From: Rickettsia endosymbiont of Culicoides newsteadi
Lineage (GTDB): Bacteria > Pseudomonadota > Alphaproteobacteria > Rickettsiales > Rickettsiaceae
NCBI RefSeq assembly: GCF_002259525.1
Contig: NZ_MWZE01000001.1
Span: 32,984 to 71,244 of the forward strand
Direction of reading: 5' to 3'
DNA length: 38,261 bases
The notes beneath the pieces were generated by a model. That model was not told the DNA's origin. It worked only from the letters and a program-made list of their open reading frames with translations, and did no database searches. Shown here one piece after another: positions 4,511 to 37,742 of this stretch. Position numbers and translations under genes: made by a program. Within the stretch, counting starts at the first letter, position 1. The number at the start of each line of letters is the position of its first letter.

Positions 4511-4600
4511 GTCATTGCGAGGAGTGTGTAAACACGACGAAGCAATCCATATGATAAGCTTCATGGATTGCCACGCTCACGTACGTTCGCTCGCAATGAC
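4511..4600. repeat. R1 palindromic repeat (a/b type)
   Basis: Outer arms GTCATTGCGAG and CTCGCAATGAC are exact inverted copies. Inner arms GCAATCCA and TGGATTGC also pair. The left half carries the mini-hairpin GTGT-gtaa-ACAC. The right half has the ACGTACGT variant, which pairs less well. It lies between yajC and atpC. Confidence 0.9.
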
Positions 4601-4619: not shown

Positions 4620-4710
4620 CTCATTGCGAAGAGCCGCTTTACGGCGACGAAGCAATCCAGGAAAACGATAAATTTGGATTGCTTCGGGCTTCACCCCTCC
4701 TCGCAATGAC
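4620..4710. repeat. R1 palindromic repeat (a/a type)
   Basis: This second copy is 19 bp after the previous one. The left mini-hairpin is GCCG-cttta-CGGC. The inner stem is long because both halves have GAAGC next to the CAATCC core. Open reading frames of 64 codons cross it on both strands but are by-products of the repeat. Confidence 0.88.
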
Positions 4711-6645: not shown

Positions 6646-6739
6646 GTCATTACGAGAAGCTACTTTAGTAACAACAAAGCAATCCATTTCTAATTACCTT
6701 TATGGATTGCCACGCTCACATACGTTCGCTCGCAATGAC
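6646..6739. repeat. R1 palindromic repeat between atpG and atpD
   Basis: It begins GTCATTACGAG (one change from consensus) and ends CTCGCAATGAC, with the core AGCAATCCA ... TGGATTGC. The right half is the GCTCACATACGTTCGC variant. It lies inside the ATPase gene cluster. Confidence 0.85.
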
Positions 6740-6757: not shown

Positions 6758-6810
6758 GTCATTGCGAGGAGGCGTGAGCCGACGAAGCAATCCATTCGCT
6801 CACAATGAGC
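6758..6810. repeat. Half copy of R1 in the atpG-atpD gap
   Basis: A complete left half (GTCATTGCGAGGAGGC then the GGC-gtga-GCC mini-hairpin and GACGAAGCAATCCATTCGC) runs straight into CTCACAATGAGC. The second half has been deleted to its last few bases. The rest of the 234-bp gap holds nothing else that I can recognise. Confidence 0.75.
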
Positions 6811-9324: not shown

Positions 9325-9360
9325 GTCATTCCGAGACCACATAGTGGTCGTGGCAATCCA
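9325..9360. repeat. Half R1 repeat between atpH and atpA
   Basis: A single b-type half: GTCATTCCGAG, then the mini-hairpin GACCAC-ata-GTGGTC and GTGGCAATCCA. The second half is absent. The same mini-hairpin sequence appears in the copies at 15872 and 29174. Confidence 0.75.
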
Positions 9361-10150: not shown

Positions 10151-10218
10151 TGCCTGTACCTCATATTTAAATTTAATTGCAAGTTGTTATTCTTGCTCTC
10201 TTGTCATCCGCCTCTCTT

Positions 10219-10269
10219 GTCACCCCTGCGTAACCAGGAGTCTTAGATTCCCGCCTACGCGGGAGTAAC
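10219..10269. repeat. R2 palindromic repeat
   Basis: GTCACCCCTGCGTAACCAGG ... CCCGCCTACGCGGGAGTAAC: an R2 copy with one arm partly decayed. It sits in the 177-bp gap between lpdA and the small membrane gene. Confidence 0.8.
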
Positions 10270-11773: not shown

Positions 11774-11801
11774 ATTATAGTGAATTAACTTGAATTAGCA
11801 A
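11774..11801 (-). promoter_or_regulatory. Outward-facing promoter-like sequence in MITE-1 A, upstream of lpdA
   Basis: On the minus strand this reads TTGCTA, 16 bases, TATAAT. The -10 box is a perfect consensus match and the -35 matches 4 of 6. Transcription would start near 11767 and run out of the element into lpdA with a leader of about 50 bases. Both boxes lie inside the terminal repeat region of the MITE. Prediction from sequence only. Confidence 0.5.
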
Positions 11802-11973
11802 CGTTATAAATCCTATTAGTATTTAGCTTCAGCGTCATTGCGAGAAGTCACTTTAGTGGGGACGAAGCAATCCAAAAAACTATTAAAATGGATTGCTTCG
11901 GAGGCTTATGCCTCCTCGCAATGACAGTATGATGGGTGCTTATTCGGCACTAATTCAGGTTAATTGACTATAA
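11775..11973. mobile_element. MITE-1 copy A, containing one R1 repeat
   Basis: The ends are imperfect inverted repeats: left TTATAGTGAATTAACTTGAA, right TTCAGGTTAATTGACTATAA. The interior carries a full R1 (11834-11925) flanked by ATTAGTATTTAGCTTCAGC on one side and ATGGGTGCTTATTCGGCAC on the other. The same flanks recur in copies B (22266-22500) and C (30110-30467, opposite orientation). No protein is encoded. The TA dinucleotides at the tips suggest a TA-targeting (IS630/Tc1-like) transposase acting in trans; this is inference. Confidence 0.75.
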
Positions 11974-15755: not shown

Positions 15756-15854
15756 GTCATTGCGAGGAGGTCGCCAGACCGACGAAGCAACCCATTTCTA
15801 TTCACTTTTTCTTGGATTGCCGCGTCGCCGCTTTTAGCGGCTCCTCGCAATGAC
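15756..15854. repeat. R1 palindromic repeat
   Basis: Outer arms GTCATTGCGAGGAG and CTCCTCGCAATGAC. Left mini-hairpin GGTC-gcca-GACC; right mini-hairpin GCCGC-tttta-GCGGC. Inner arm CAACCCA shows one change against TTGGATTG. Confidence 0.88.
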
Positions 15855-15871: not shown

Positions 15872-15952
15872 GTCATTGCGAGACCACATAGTGGTCGCGG
15901 CAATCCACACATTATTGGATTGCTTCATCGGTTTACGCCTCCTCGCAATGAC
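15872..15952. repeat. R1 palindromic repeat (b/a type)
   Basis: Left half is the b-type with GACCAC-ata-GTGGTC, right half the a-type with GGTTTACGCC. Outer arms GTCATTGCGAG/CTCGCAATGAC are intact. Confidence 0.88.
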
Positions 15953-18691: not shown

Positions 18692-18861
18692 GCATAGGCA
18701 TCAGTTTAAGAAAATAAAGTAAAAAAGTCGTCTATTAGCGAGCCACCGTAGGTGGCGTGGCAATCCATTTTTAATCACTTTTTTGGATTGCTTCGTTGAC
18801 CTTACGGTCTCCTCGCAATGACAGTTTCTCAATTATTGGCTTCTTAAACTAACACTTATGC
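18692..18861. mobile_element. MITE-3 element carrying an R1
   Basis: Inverted ends: left GCATAGGCATCAGTTTAAGAA, right TTCTTAAACTAACACTTATGC, imperfect but clearly related over about 20 bases. Inside is an R1 (18730-18822) whose left tip is the variant GTCTATTAGCGAG, with left mini-hairpin GCCACC-gta-GGTGGC and right GACC-ttac-GGTC. The same inverted ends surround the R1 nested in the MITE-2 copy at 35427-35691. Confidence 0.65.
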
Positions 18862-18924: not shown

Positions 18925-20035
18925 GTGCGTGCTGAAATTGAACATTATGTAAAAAAAATCGAACAGTCTTTAGAGCTGCTCAGGAGGTCACTTTGATTTT
19001 GATAACGCAACCAAAAGGCTTGTAGAGCTGGAAAATATATCAGAAGATCCAACTTTGTGGGATAATCAGGAAAAGGCTCAAAATATTCTGAAAGAAAAAA
19101 GACTTCTAGAGACTAAGCTTAATTCGTTTAAACAACTTCAATCTAATCTTACGGAATGTTTAGAACTTGAGGAATTGGCGTTTGCCGAAAATGACCAGCA
19201 AGTTCTAGAACAAGTTCAAGAAGATTTAAGAAAACTATCTATTATTGCCGGAAAATTTGAGACTGAATGCTTATTTTCTGGGGAATTTGACAGTAATAAT
19301 TGTTTTCTTGAAATCAATGCTGGAGCTGGCGGTACAGAGAGTCATGATTGGGCATCAATTATGATGCGTATGTATTTGCGTTTCGCGGAAAGACAGGGTT
19401 TTAAAAGTGAAGTTATTCATCTTATTAACGGTGAAGAAGCAGGAATAAAATCATGTACTATTAAAATTAATGGCTACCAAGCATATGGTTGGTTTCGAAC
19501 AGAATCAGGAGTGCACCGTTTAGTACGGATATCGCCTTTTAATGCAGCGGGTAAAAGGATGACTAGCTTTGCTAGTAGTTGGGTATATCCAGAAATTGAT
19601 GATAGTATTGCAATTGTAATAGATGAAAAAGACCTTAGAATTGATACTTACCGTTCTTCCGGAGCTGGGGGACAACACGTAAACACTACTGATTCTGCCG
19701 TAAGGATTACCCACTTACCTACTAATATCGTAACACAGTGCCAAAATGATAGATCACAGCATAAGAACAAAGCACAGGCTATGAAAATGCTTAAAGCAAG
19801 GCTTTATGAACTAGAGTTAAAAAAACGTACTGAGGATATTCAAGAACAGAATGCATCAAAAACTGAGAATGGCTGGGGACATCAAATAAGATCTTATGTA
19901 TTGCAACCTTATCAAATGGTTAAGGATTTACGTACCAATCATGAGACTTCTGATACTAAAGGTGTACTTGACGGAGATTTAGAAAAATTTGTTTCAGCTA
20001 GCCTATCAATTAGTGTTGGTAATATATATAGTTAA
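18925..20035 (+). CDS. prfB: Peptide chain release factor 2, with programmed +1 frameshift
   Basis: RF2 ends translation at UGA and UAA codons. The gene is in two frames: 23 codons from GTG 18925 (VRAEIEHYVKK...LLRRSL) to an in-frame TGA at 18994, then a +1 shift continues from GAT 18995 to the stop at 20035, giving about 369 residues. The shift site has the standard elements: an internal Shine-Dalgarno AGGAGG (18982-18987), three bases, then CTT TGA. The codon recognition tripeptide SPF is seen in VRISPFNAAG, and GAGGQHVNTTDSAVRITH carries the GGQ that acts in the peptidyl transferase centre. TAGGAAA precedes the GTG. The last residues and stop come from a MITE end (20027-20133). Confidence 0.96.
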
Positions 20036-20133
20036 TTCAGGAGAATTTGGTGCTAGGAACGATGGAGCGACGCCTATAAGTAATAGGCGAGCGACGAGTG
20101 ACGACGTCACCAACTTCTCATTAATTGACTATA
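20027..20133. mobile_element. MITE-2 copy D, 107 bp, overlapping prfB 3' end
   Basis: Ends TATAGTTAATTCAGGAGAAT and TCTCATTAATTGACTATA are inverted. It is the same length (107 bp) and nearly the same sequence as copy F at 37636-37742, including the central palindrome GCCTATAAGTAATAGGC. No coding capacity. Its first bases form codons of prfB. Confidence 0.8.
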
Positions 20134-22265: not shown

Positions 22266-22500
22266 TAGTAAAAGTAGTTATGTTATACCCGATTAGTATT
22301 TAGCATCAGCGTCATGGCTCAGAGCCACTTTAGTGGGCGACGAAGCAATCCTGTTTGTGTCATACCTGCGTAGGCAGGTATCCAGATTCCCGCCTACGCG
22401 GGAATGACAACTTACAATTGCTTCGAAGGTTTACGCCTCCTCGCTAATAGACAGCACGATGGGTGGTTATTCAGCACTAATTCAGGTTAATTGACTATAA
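22266..22500. mobile_element. MITE-1 copy B with R1 interrupted by R2
   Basis: The right end TTCAGGTTAATTGACTATAA and the inner flanks (GATTAGTATTTAGCATCAGC and ATGGGTGGTTATTCAGCAC) match copy A. The left tip is diverged (TAGTAAAAGTAGTTATGTTA), resembling 4480-4500. Inside is an R1 (22311-22452, right tip in the variant GCTAATAGAC) whose central loop holds a whole 50-bp R2 (22359-22408). Three families are nested here. Confidence 0.75.
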
Positions 22501-23400: not shown

Positions 23401-23609
23401 CACAACTGTTGAAAGTTAGAAGAGGAAGAGGTTTTAGACCGAATAGTTTAAAAGTCGTATGTGGTCAACGTCATTGCGAGAAAGACCGCAGGTCGACGAA
23501 GCAATCCACAAAATTAACCAAAAATGGATTGCCACGACCACTACGTGGTCTCGCAATGACGAAAAAGCTATCTAAAATCCGCTCCACCTTCTAACTTTCA
23601 ACAGTTGTG
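23401..23609. mobile_element. MITE-4 element with 22-bp perfect terminal inverted repeats and an internal R1
   Basis: The left end CACAACTGTTGAAAGTTAGA (plus AG) and the right end at 23588-23609 are exact inverted copies over 22 bp, with weaker pairing further in. The interior is an R1 (23470-23560) with left mini-hairpin GACC-gca-GGTC and right ACCAC-tac-GTGGT. A single related end is at 35695-35716. A 75-codon frame across the element is not a gene. Confidence 0.8.
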
Positions 23610-23632
23610 ATGTCCCCCCTGCCTGACTTAGT

Positions 23633-23754
23633 GTCACCCCTGCGTAAGCAGGGGTCTTAGATTCCTGCCATTGCTAAGAACGACAATTTACTTTTTTATG
23701 TCATCCCTGCGTAAGCAGGTATCTATACTAGATTCCCGCCTAGGCGGGAATAAC
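23633..23754. repeat. Two R2 repeats in a row
   Basis: Copies at 23633-23684 (CCTGCGTAAGCAGG intact, other arm decayed to CTGCCATTGCTAAG) and 23700-23754 (both arms intact, with a short duplication CTATACTAGA in the centre). They lie 3' of the autotransporter gene. Confidence 0.82.
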
Positions 23755-28627: not shown

Positions 28628-28670
28628 AAATTTTTCCTAATTTAAGTTAATTTTTTAAATCGGTTTTTAT

Positions 28671-28722
28671 GTCATTCCCGCGTAGACGGGAATCCAAGAC
28701 CCCCTACCTTCGCAGGGATGAC
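28671..28722. repeat. R2 repeat in the autotransporter leader
   Basis: GTCATTCCCGCGTAGACGGG ... CTTCGCAGGGATGAC: an R2 in the opposite orientation to the others, 44 bp upstream of the autotransporter ATG. Confidence 0.8.
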
Positions 28723-29173: not shown

Positions 29174-29261
29174 GTCATTGCGAGACCACATAGTGGTCGT
29201 GGCAATCCATTTGGGTCACTTTCCTGGATTGCTTCGTCGGCTCACGCCTTCTCGCAATGAC
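29174..29261. repeat. R1 palindromic repeat (b/a type)
   Basis: GTCATTGCGAG with the GACCAC-ata-GTGGTC mini-hairpin on the left, GGCTCACGCC on the right, ending CTCGCAATGAC. Confidence 0.88.
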
Positions 29262-29274
29262 GTATAAACCTCTC

Positions 29275-29343
29275 GTCACTGCGAGAAAACATAAGCTTAC
29301 CACTCGTCATTGCGAGCGAACGTATGTGAGCGTGGCAATCCAT
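29275..29343. repeat. R1 left ends, truncated
   Basis: GTCACTGCGAGAA and then GTCATTGCGAGCGAACGTAT ... GTGGCAATCCA; only left halves, with no right partner. Confidence 0.65.
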
Positions 29344-30108: not shown

Positions 30109-30188
30109 CTATAGTCAATTGCTGAACTAGTGCCGAATAGGCACCCATCGTGCTGTAATTGTGCATAAGTGTCAGTTGACGCCTATGT

Positions 30189-30269
30189 GTCATTGCGAGA
30201 AGGCGTAAGCCTTTGAAGCAATCCACTCTTTTATGGATTGCCACGCCACCTACGGTGGCTCGCAATGAC
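30189..30269. repeat. R1 repeat inside MITE-1 C (a/b type)
   Basis: Outer arms GTCATTGCGAG/CTCGCAATGAC, both side mini-hairpins perfectly paired, inner arm GCAATCCA/TGGATTGC. Confidence 0.9.
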
Positions 30270-30295
30270 GCATAGGTGTCAGTTATTGAGAAACC

Positions 30296-30390
30296 GTCAT
30301 TGCGAGGAGACCGTAAGGTCGACGAAGCAATCCATTTTAATCGCTTTTTTGGATTGCTTCGTTGCCACTAAAGTGGCTCCTCGCAATGAC
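30296..30390. repeat. R1 repeat inside MITE-1 C (a/a type), best four-way fold
   Basis: All 95 bases are used: a 13-bp outer stem, left hairpin GACC-gtaa-GGTC, a 14-bp inner stem (one G-U) with a loop of about 14, and right hairpin GCCACT-aa-AGTGGC, leaving almost nothing unpaired at the junction. Confidence 0.92.
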
Positions 30391-30438
30391 GCTTATGTGC
30401 AATGACGCTGATGCTAAATACTAACCGGATTTATAACG

Positions 30439-30466
30439 TTGCCAATTAAAGTTAATTCACTAATAT
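30439..30466 (+). promoter_or_regulatory. Promoter-like sequence in MITE-1 C, upstream of dprA
   Basis: TTGCCA, 16 bases, TAATAT, at the equivalent place in the element to the promoter-like sequence facing lpdA in copy A. Start expected near 30473. Weaker -10 box than in copy A. Confidence 0.4.
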
Positions 30467-35426: not shown

Positions 35427-35691
35427 TATAGTCAATTCAGAAGAATTTGGGGCTAGGAGCGATGGAGTGCATAAGCGTCAGTTTAAAAAATAATAATTGA
35501 AAAACCGTCATTGCGAGGAAACCTTAAGGTTGACGAAGCAATCCAGAAAAGTGATTAAAAATGGATTGCCACGCCACTTACGGTGGCTCGCTAATAAACG
35601 ACTTTTCTACTTTATTTTCTTAAATTAACGCCTATAAGTAATAGGCGAGCATTGAGCAACAACGTCTCCAACTTCTCATCAATTGACTATA
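35427..35691. mobile_element. MITE-2 copy E with MITE-3 and R1 nested inside
   Basis: Ends TATAGTCAATTCAGAAGAAT and CTCATCAATTGACTATA match the 107-bp copies D and F. After GGAGCGATGGAG (35467) the sequence is split by about 158 bp that begins TGCATAAGCGTCAGTTT, contains an R1 at 35507-35602 (left AACC-ttaa-GGTT, right GCCAC-ttac-GGTGGC, right tip in the variant GCTAATAAACGAC), and ends TTTTCTTAAATTAACGCCTA. Then the copy-F sequence resumes (AAGTAATAGGCGAGC). Confidence 0.8.
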
Positions 35692-35717: not shown

Positions 35718-37553
35718 CTAAGATACCTGAGCTATTTGGTATTCTAGAGCCACTTCTTTACCACAAAAAGCCATAGCAATTTTGATAATTTTCTGAACAT
35801 GAGAGTGTTCTTTTATTTTAGTCTCATATTTTTTTCTCATGATTTGATCTAGCCCATCTTTTGCGATAGATTCTAGAGTATCAGGAGATTTGCATATTTT
35901 ATATTCAATAATAATAGCATTATTCTGCTTCCCAGCCTTAGGTAGCAATATAATATCAGCTCTACCACTGCCTGTTTCTCTCTCACTATCTATGACATAG
36001 CCAGGAGATAAAGTGTTAATTAAACCTAGCATAAAGCCGCTATAAAATAACTCGGCTTTTTTCTCGCCAGTTTGATGAAAACTAGTAGCATTTAGTAATA
36101 ACTCTTGTAATTTCTCTTTAAATTCTTCTATTTTACCTGCCGGCAGCAAACTAGCAAAAGAATAATATAAAGAACTATCCATTTGTAACTTGCTACTCAC
36201 CCATTGTAATAGCCTGGTTTCATATATATATTCTACTTCCTTATTAGGCACTGATAATTCGTAGATATCTTTTGCAGGTTCGATAGCTGTTGGGTTTAGA
36301 TAACCACTAAATAGCAACAGACTAAATAACCCACTTCGCGTATTAATATCGCTGAAACTGATTTGTTTGGTAATAGGTGCGATGATACTTTTACCGCTAG
36401 CTAATTGTTGGATATCAATTTGTATTTCATCTGATAACAATGCTTTATCAACAAGCCCAGTGCCACCGCTATCAAGCCAATAATGATCAAGCTTACCTCT
36501 AGTATCTAGGCATAACATAATTGACCATGGATTATAGATGATTTCTCCACCAAAACTATAGCCATTATACCAAGCTTTAATTTGTTCAGGACTTGTGTCA
36601 AGTGGTACTTTGGTTAATAACTCATCAACCTCTGCTTGAGTGAAACCATAAAACTTAGCAAATTTTTCATCTAGCAGAGTATATTCACGAACATTATTCA
36701 AATCCGAAAATAAATTAGCTTTAGCAACCCGTAATATGCCAGTTATTAGCCCTTTCTCTAAATAAGGATTAGTTTTTAAACTACTGCCAAACATTCCGCG
36801 GAATATTTTTAGTACATCATCAAATTCTTTTAATTTATCACCAAATTCAATGTATGAACTATTGATCGGCGTATCGTATTCATCGATCAATATATAAACT
36901 TTTTGACCAAAATGTTTGTACAGTACTTCACTCAAAACCCGTAAACTATCTTTTAAGTCTTCCTTATCAAGTTTTCCTGTAAAATATCGATTTAACTTTT
37001 CCTTTTGTGCATCATCTAGTAAATTTTCATCTGTTGTTATATAACGCTTTAAGTATCGATGGTTTGTAAATAAATTAGTTACTTGATTTTTTATCCCATT
37101 TTCAATTTCTTGGTAGTTACTGCCTTTAACATCCTTAAAATTTATGGAAATAACTGGATAATTACCTTGCTGAGCCATGGCATATTCATTGCCGTTAATC
37201 TTTAAAGGCTCTAAAGTTCTTTTTCCCTTAATGCCTAAATCGATTTCTCCACCGGTAAATAGCTTGTTATTTACTCTATCTTCTATAGGTAAAGGAACAC
37301 CATTTTGATCCACCTCTATCTCAAAAAATTTCTGGAGCATGTTCATATTCAAACTCTTACCCCAACGCCTTGGTCTAGTGATCAATATAACCTTACCACT
37401 ATCTTCCAATAATTCTTTGATCATTAGACTTTTATCAACAAATACATCACTATTAACTAGCAAGTCATAGAATTCATCGGTACCTATCCTCATTCTTGGT
37501 GGTTTATTGTTATCTTGCATGGTGCTATTAGAATCAGAAAGCTTAAAGGTCAT
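35718..37553 (-). CDS. AAA-ATPase-like / PD-(D/E)XK nuclease family protein
   Basis: A protein of the AAA_ATPase-like plus DUF1703 (PD-(D/E)XK) family, common in multi-copy sets in insect and protist symbionts. The N-terminal ATPase half has ITRPRRWGKSLNMNM (variant P-loop) and VYILIDEYDTPI (Walker B). The C-terminal nuclease half has an early Glu in KAELFYSGFMLG, Asp in GRADIILL and the Glu-x-Lys of IIEYKICKS, so the catalytic core looks complete. The biological role is not established. The frame is open to a TTG at 37625, but the added start is hydrophobic and unusual; I use ATG 37553 (611 residues). Neither start has a good ribosome site. MITE-2 copy F lies upstream and a solo MITE-4 end downstream. 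Confidence 0.85.
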   Translation of the reverse strand: MTFKLSDSNSTMQDNNKPPRMRIGTDEFYDLLVNSDVFVDKSLMIKELLEDSGKVILITRPRRWGKSLNMNMLQKFFEIEVDQNGVPLPIEDRVNNKLFTGGEIDLGIKGKRTLEPLKINGNEYAMAQQGNYPVISINFKDVKGSNYQEIENGIKNQVTNLFTNHRYLKRYITTDENLLDDAQKEKLNRYFTGKLDKEDLKDSLRVLSEVLYKHFGQKVYILIDEYDTPINSSYIEFGDKLKEFDDVLKIFRGMFGSSLKTNPYLEKGLITGILRVAKANLFSDLNNVREYTLLDEKFAKFYGFTQAEVDELLTKVPLDTSPEQIKAWYNGYSFGGEIIYNPWSIMLCLDTRGKLDHYWLDSGGTGLVDKALLSDEIQIDIQQLASGKSIIAPITKQISFSDINTRSGLFSLLLFSGYLNPTAIEPAKDIYELSVPNKEVEYIYETRLLQWVSSKLQMDSSLYYSFASLLPAGKIEEFKEKLQELLLNATSFHQTGEKKAELFYSGFMLGLINTLSPGYVIDSERETGSGRADIILLPKAGKQNNAIIIEYKICKSPDTLESIAKDGLDQIMRKKYETKIKEHSHVQKIIKIAMAFCGKEVALEYQIAQVS

Positions 37554-37635
37554 GTTATTTATTATATTTGATTTAAGCAAAGTGTAGCATAAATAAGCTA
37601 ACAACACCAGAAATCTAAAGAACAAATTGAAAAAT

Positions 37636-37742
37636 TATAGTCAATTCAGGAGAATTTGGGGCTAGGAGCGATGGAGCGACGCCTATAAGTAATAGGCGAG
37701 CGACGAGTGACGACGTCACCAACTTCCCATCAATTGACTATA
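37636..37742. mobile_element. MITE-2 copy F, 107 bp, uninterrupted
   Basis: Ends TATAGTCAATTCAGGAGAAT and CCCATCAATTGACTATA. Central GACGCCTATAAGTAATAGGC forms a palindrome. The outward left end creates a TATAAT on the minus strand (37634-37639) toward the AAA/PD-(D/E)XK gene, but with no good -35 box. Confidence 0.82.

Follow-up and report, generated by a model that had tools for sequence, protein, structure and literature searches.

The RPE-4, RPE-6 and RPE-7 families of Rickettsiaceae are high-copy palindromic repeats of about 95-136 bp with ATGAC ends, and RPE-7 of R. conorii, 99 bp long and present in 223 copies, has a predicted common fold (PMC3767692, PMC2267715). REP repeats are described in several forms, including the REPINs and BIMEs with RAYT, in which a short spacer joins two inverted REPs into a composite foldback (PMC3116915, PMC2817692), and the CGTC-tagged families. 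Di Nocera et al. reported a preference for heterodimers in other REP families without an explanation and suggested that it gives protection from SbcCD (PMC3733652).

Here, we analyzed a window of 38,261 nucleotides, to which all bare positions below refer, that belongs to the Torix group of Rickettsia ('Ca. Tisiphia'); topA of its genome is 93-99% identical to that of four Torix-group assemblies, including the complete RiCimp chromosome. The window spans 32984-71244 of contig 1 of an insect-symbiont genome (1.46 Mb, 99.9% complete), which holds about 200 paired hairpin repeats of one kind, R1, which a preliminary description had interpreted as complete four-way junctions that are either selected as structures or copied by a mechanism making inverted duplicates. 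We consider R1 to be, probably, a non-autonomous palindromic family whose whole units are swapped between copies, presumably via recombination.

Results

R1 is a pair of hairpin units

Two inverted units of 36-42 nt make up R1, each with the layout CGTC-ATTGC-variable hairpin-GCAAT-CCA, and its natural building block is this half-unit, not the junction. Each half-unit runs from (C/T)GTC through ATTGC, an internal loop that interrupts the stem, and an apical hairpin of variable sequence (stem 3-6 bp, loop 3-5 nt) to GCAAT and CCA; in perfect-arm units, GTC is preceded by C in 70-81% of cases and by T in most of the rest. Perfect half-units matching GTCATTGCGAGN{4,34}GCAATCCA occur 344 times in the 1.46 Mb genome, and the reversed control pattern 0 times. 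Most units face each other head to head with their tags outward, usually spaced by 14-16 bp, and neighbors within 40 bp were arranged head to head, tail to tail and head to tail in 65, 17 and 3 cases in this genome and in 96, 27 and 6 in RiCimp. The dimers measure 81-95 bp, end in CGCAATGAC and are almost all intergenic in this genome; some units in the window are unpaired singles, as at 9325-9360 and 29306-29342. The family is present in 89 of 217 Rickettsiales genomes and 47 of 112 genera; most of the Rickettsiaceae genomes with R1 hold at least 40 units, and copy number among relatives runs from 0 to about 500. A plasmid search with the 95-bp dimer gave no match, an Rfam scan of the window gave nothing at the gathering threshold, and searching the literature for GTCATTGCGAG, the sequence of the arm, returned unrelated matches only.

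The copy at 30296-30390 consists of an A-type half-unit on the plus strand (30296-30334; outer arm GTCATTGCGAG, hairpin GACC-gtaa-GGTC, inner arm GCAATCCA, inner end AAGCAATCCA), a spacer, ttttaatcgcttttt, that is the terminal loop of the inner stem (30335-30349), and an A-type half-unit on the minus strand (30350-30390; side hairpin GCCAC-ttta-GTGGC). Beside it lie a plus-strand half-unit (30189-30225; AGGC-gtaa-GCCT) and, as the right half of this neighboring dimer, a minus-strand G-type half-unit (30234-30269; inner end GTGGCAATCCA, hairpin GCCACC-gta-GGTGGC). Further dimers occupy 4511-4600 (head to head, a GTGT hairpin and a CGAACGTACGTGAGCG unit), 4620-4710, 6646-6739 (followed by another unit at 6758-6794), 15756-15854, 15872-15952, 23470-23560 (GACC-gca-GGTC and GACCAC-gta-GTGGTC) and 29174-29261 (GACCAC-ata-GTGGTC and GGC-gtga-GCC).

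The four-armed fold follows from unlike halves

In the 30296 copy, four stems do use nearly all 95 bases, as had been described, since DNA and RNA folding both give an outer stem, an inner stem and a pair of side hairpins and leave nothing but the loops unpaired. The predicted energies are -34.9 kcal/mol for DNA (z -11.75) and -56.4 kcal/mol for RNA (z -12.31), and 0 of 200 shuffles folded equally well. Extended to R1 as a whole, the junction is not a general rule: among 106 dimers, it was predicted as the lowest-energy form for 41 under RNA parameters and for 55 under DNA parameters (39-52%), and the minimum had both cross-half stems but no side hairpins in 55 (RNA) and 28 (DNA) of the 106, so that many other dimers take a long foldback as their minimum-energy form.

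Of the features listed in the preliminary description, the arms are present, as are nearly all of the side hairpins. With the CACT/AGTG stem listed for 11849, the loop would be 2 nt long, and the real hairpin there is GCCAC-ttta-GTGGC, the left hairpin of the dimer at 11834-11925, broken in the window by two changes and intact in the same-species genome G135. The outer arm is also not shared by every listed copy, being altered on the left of 18730-18822 (variant GTCTATTAGCGAG opposite a canonical right arm) and degraded on the right of 35507-35592 (CTCGCTAATAAAC). Inverted halves share their arms, which can therefore pair across the dimer, and unlike apical hairpins cannot pair across halves, so each folds alone and a four-way junction results; the four-armed shape is thus the automatic outcome of placing two unlike inverted units head to head.

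Covariation is confined to the apical hairpins

The side hairpins were said to differ in sequence and to stay self-complementary, and this agrees with what we found, as 46.6% of 324 distinct units have an apical stem that pairs perfectly over 4 bp or more, versus 26.9 ± 1.8% when 3' halves are re-dealt; GACC..GGTC and GGTC..GACC hairpins both exist among the units. Across all helices, the apical hairpins covary and the cross-half stems do not. None of the 71 changes in the outer-arm ATTGC among 148 distinct dimers was matched by the other half, and inner-arm changes included one dimer altered alike on both sides. Over four genomes, the canonical arm (C) and the variant GTCTATTAGCGAG (V) combined as CC in 179 dimers, CV or VC in 40 and VV in 3, with about 2.4 VV expected under independence, and a canonical arm stood opposite the variant in 40 of its 43 carrier dimers, as chance predicts. 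The variant recurs in several genomes, for instance at 18730-18742 in the window, in L047 near 6410 and in L061 near 7530. Because it combines at random with the canonical arm, copies spread despite an interrupted outer stem, and this, with the lack of cross-half compensation, argues against selection on the four-way junction itself. Side hairpins that drift freely had been named as evidence against a maintained structure, and such drift is partly what we see, with 134 one-sided and 16 compensated stem changes within subfamilies, yet apical pairing stays above chance.

Whole units are swapped at orthologous sites

A comparison with 400 kb of G135, which carries 443 R1 units, yielded a small sample of 30 orthologous unit pairs with flanks at 97% or better, of which 20 were identical, 7 had point changes and 3 were whole-hairpin swaps, with 0 compensatory double substitutions. 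Two of the three swaps fall inside 30189-30390. At 30189, G135 has a GACC-gtaa-GGTC unit and a new spacer in place of AGGC-gtaa-GCCT, and at 30350, a G-type GCCACC unit and the spacer gaaaagtgattaaaaa replace the GCCAC-ttta unit and its spacer; the left hairpin at 30296 reads GACC-gtaa-GATC there, one uncompensated change. In RiCimp, the single dimer at the 30296 place retains the AGGC-type unit next to a ctctttta spacer. The arrangement in G135, which is similar to the common GACC-gaaaagtgattaaaaa-GCCACC dimer, therefore appears to be the derived one. On its left side, the 30189 swap has only about 11-12 bp of homology, which is short for RecA-dependent exchange. Against RiCimp, swaps with unchanged neighbors were found at 4564 (the right half of 4511-4600 is a different unit there), at 6703 (the middle unit of the group beginning at 6646) and at L054:8221. 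R1 arrays also expand and contract between close relatives, as at 9325, with one unit here and five in G135, at 15756, where G135 has a contracted array, and at 30296.

Exchange of a whole unit between copies changes both stem sides in one event, and the apparent covariation among R1 copies is largely such exchange. Between the two origins first considered, a selected structure or the copying of inverted duplicates, these data favor a third, the exchange of whole hairpin-bearing units.

Some copies are carried by MITE-like elements

Some dimers lie inside MITE-like carriers with TATAGTCAATT-type ends, a TA target duplication and lengths of 107-350 bp. The carrier M2 at 30110-30463 (ends TATAGTCAATT... 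and ...TTAATTCACTA) encloses both neighboring dimers, is absent from Lappe4 (L031) and has one dimer, not two, in RiCimp (L032). A second M2-type element (11776-11972) holds the dimer at 11834-11925, an M1-type MITE with TATAGTCAATT termini (35427-35691) has the dimer at 35507-35592 at its core, and two 107-bp M1 MITEs (20027-20133 and 37636-37742) are without R1. Inserts at L058:5676 and RiCimp 1010131 are absent from relatives and show the TA duplication and TATAGTCAATT-like ends. Inward termini bracket 13 of the 105 R1 clusters, versus 0.7% of random positions, and MITE carriage accounts for a minority of R1 copies.

In the stretches examined here and in RiCimp, dozens of TIR pairs span exactly 107 bp. 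Those spaced at 0.7-2.6 kb in the stretches examined mostly enclosed ordinary genes and revealed no obvious autonomous copy of a full IS with TATAGTCAATT ends; the genome holds three DDE_3 (IS630-type) matches. An AAA-ATPase/PD-(D/E)XK nuclease gene at 35718-37625 is flanked by the MITEs at 35427-35691 and 37636-37742. A second palindromic repeat (e.g., TGTCATACCTGCGTAAGCAGGTATC...CCCGCCTACGCGGGAATGACA), which resembles the continuous-stem CGTC REP type, lies beside R1 at 2400-2452, 10218-10255, 22358-22410, 23632-23751 and 28670-28707, and at L033 4234-4372, other palindromic repeats sit within the spacer between R1 halves as a nested mosaic.

A Y1 transposase does not accompany R1

The preliminary description had pointed to a possible associated Y1 (REP-type) transposase. 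The layout of paired inverted REPs with unpaired tags outside would suit a REPIN-type element moved by RAYT or another Y1 HUH transposase, but PF01797 (Y1/RAYT) has no match in this genome and none in G135 with its 443 units, and no positive association with R1 number appears across 36 family members (Spearman -0.25; Y1 present in 5 of 19 genomes with at least 100 units and in 7 of 17 with fewer). We therefore regard this origin of R1 as extremely improbable, and, short of an unrecognized HUH enzyme, mobilization by RAYT is effectively ruled out for this genome, which has no match to the cognate transposase. In the same family, G034 and G011 each have about 48 or more Y1 (IS200-type) transposase copies, unrelated to R1 number.

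R1 dimers join unlike units

By inner end, units are classed as AAGCAATC (A) or GGCAATC (G), and the dimers of this genome comprise 127 AG, 69 AA and 1 GG, against 87, 89 and 21 expected. AA is nearly absent from the other genus of the family with the most genomes, judged by copy number and size to be Rickettsia proper (e.g., AG 135, AA 1, GG 30), and mixed pairs exceed expectation in most, though not all, repeat-rich genomes of several Rickettsiales families. When halves are classed by hairpin subfamily, they are likewise rarely alike (1 among 97 distinct dimers versus 6.6 expected). A rule called unexplained for other REPs in 2013 thus has a quantitative statement across Rickettsiales.

The explanation suggested then, SbcCD removing perfect palindromes, is without its enzyme here to the extent that TIGR00619 (SbcD) finds no match in the genome, which is 99.9% complete, with a control matched in 13 of 14 genomes; we rejected removal of homodimers by SbcCD as the cause of the rule on this search for SbcD. 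Palindromes are abundant in the genome despite the absence of an SbcD match. The rule may be inherited, may arise because perfect palindromes are unstable through some other route or may be a constraint on the pair. It is doubtful that a pair of AAGCAATC and GGCAATC with unlike hairpins is selected as a unit whose four-armed form is copied or spared; some rickettsial DNA-processing enzyme would then need or tolerate such pairs, in a genome with no SbcD match.

Discussion

When the repeat copies of a single genome covary, selection on the structure does not have to be the cause, since swapping whole units changes both sides of a hairpin at once. In the explanation that we favor, the basic unit is a CGTC-tagged REP-like hairpin, mostly in head-to-head pairs of different units, and copies come and go in pairs, within short arrays and in some cases inside TA-target MITEs. 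The near-invariant arms would let copies recombine, and an event resembling gene conversion or template switching would then exchange hairpin-bearing halves and their spacers among loci. Founder types with perfect hairpins may be copied whole while individual copies drift, with the result that perfect-hairpin families coexist. Recombination through the conserved arms is presumably the mechanism of the swaps, and the copies would be mostly passive. Against this explanation stand the 16 compensated stem changes within subfamilies, the short left-hand homology at the 30189 swap and the strong unlike-pair rule, which simple decay plus recombination does not predict; the same-species sample is also small, at 30 units.

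That the four-way junction is itself selected, as RNA or as an extruded DNA cruciform, through a protein that binds or cleaves junctions, would fit the complete fold at 30296, the hairpin pairing above chance and the unlike-unit pairing favored in most genomes, which keeps side hairpins from pairing together. We hold it to be quite unlikely, as only about two-fifths to half of the dimers fold completely, no change in one half is compensated in the other, and variant arms interrupt the outer stem of nearly all their carrier dimers and still recur. Intrastrand template switching during replication, which can make and keep stems in one step (PMC8794818), would rewrite one hairpin arm from the other and give compensation without selection, and the occurrence of GACC..GGTC and GGTC..GACC hairpins agrees with it. 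Such switching would, however, copy one local arm, and the same-species swaps change loop, stem and spacer together and match other existing copies; with subfamily stems mostly left unrepaired, this origin appears unlikely.

A role for R1 as a putative RNA element at gene 3' ends, in mRNA stability or transcription coupling, is conceivable but not probable. RiCimp has 40 convergent and 23 divergent among 164 non-genic clusters, where about 26 and 42 are expected, and the ratio of wobble to A-C mismatches is 34:17 in units sense to flanking genes and 22:26 in antisense units (Fisher p 0.044). Promoter avoidance gives the same placement, however, the unit order has no orientation bias (30 versus 30), and copies drift, are swapped or lost within species and vary in number among relatives as widely as given above. 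Placement and wobble bias hint weakly at an RNA-level effect and fit insertion tolerance equally. Together, the compensated changes and the wobble excess in sense units make some structure-level constraint possible. Strand-specific selection was rejected as a reading of the GT and AC mismatches, for which the overall counts (91 to 75, p 0.24) gave no excess and sense and antisense units differed only at a borderline level.

Among described systems, R1 resembles the CGTC-tagged REPs (PMC3733652) in its unpaired CGTC or TGTC tag at one end (CCTC also occurs among the tags of that group), its AT-opening stem and CCA tail (both in our search pattern, so that this likeness is partly by construction), its predominant head-to-head dimers with a preference for heterodimers, the absence of an associated transposase gene and its convergent and unidirectional placement. 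CGTC families 1 to 4 have one continuous 8-9 bp stem with a 4-5 nt loop, whereas R1 has 5 bp, an internal loop and a variable apical hairpin of 3-6 bp, and its 36-42 nt units belong to none of these four listed families. R1 shares the composite foldback of two inverted REPs across a short spacer with REPINs and BIMEs (PMC3116915, PMC2817692), but differs in its tag sequence and in lacking RAYT or another Y1 transposase. The likeness to MITEs is partial, as some dimers are enclosed by elements of 107-350 bp that have TATAGTCAATT-like termini and a TA duplication, but most copies are outside such elements and R1 shows no target duplication of its own. In its ATGAC ends, length and many Rickettsiaceae copies, R1 agrees with the RPE-4/-6/-7 group, although some RPEs lie within genes (PMC3767692, PMC2267715) and R1 is almost entirely intergenic. 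Compared by description, R1 very probably corresponds to part of this Rickettsia group and, within it, likely to RPE-7, a match of descriptions and not of consensus letters. Apart from the interruption of its stem, R1 has the CGTC-tagged REP layout and is a rickettsial version of known REP repeats.
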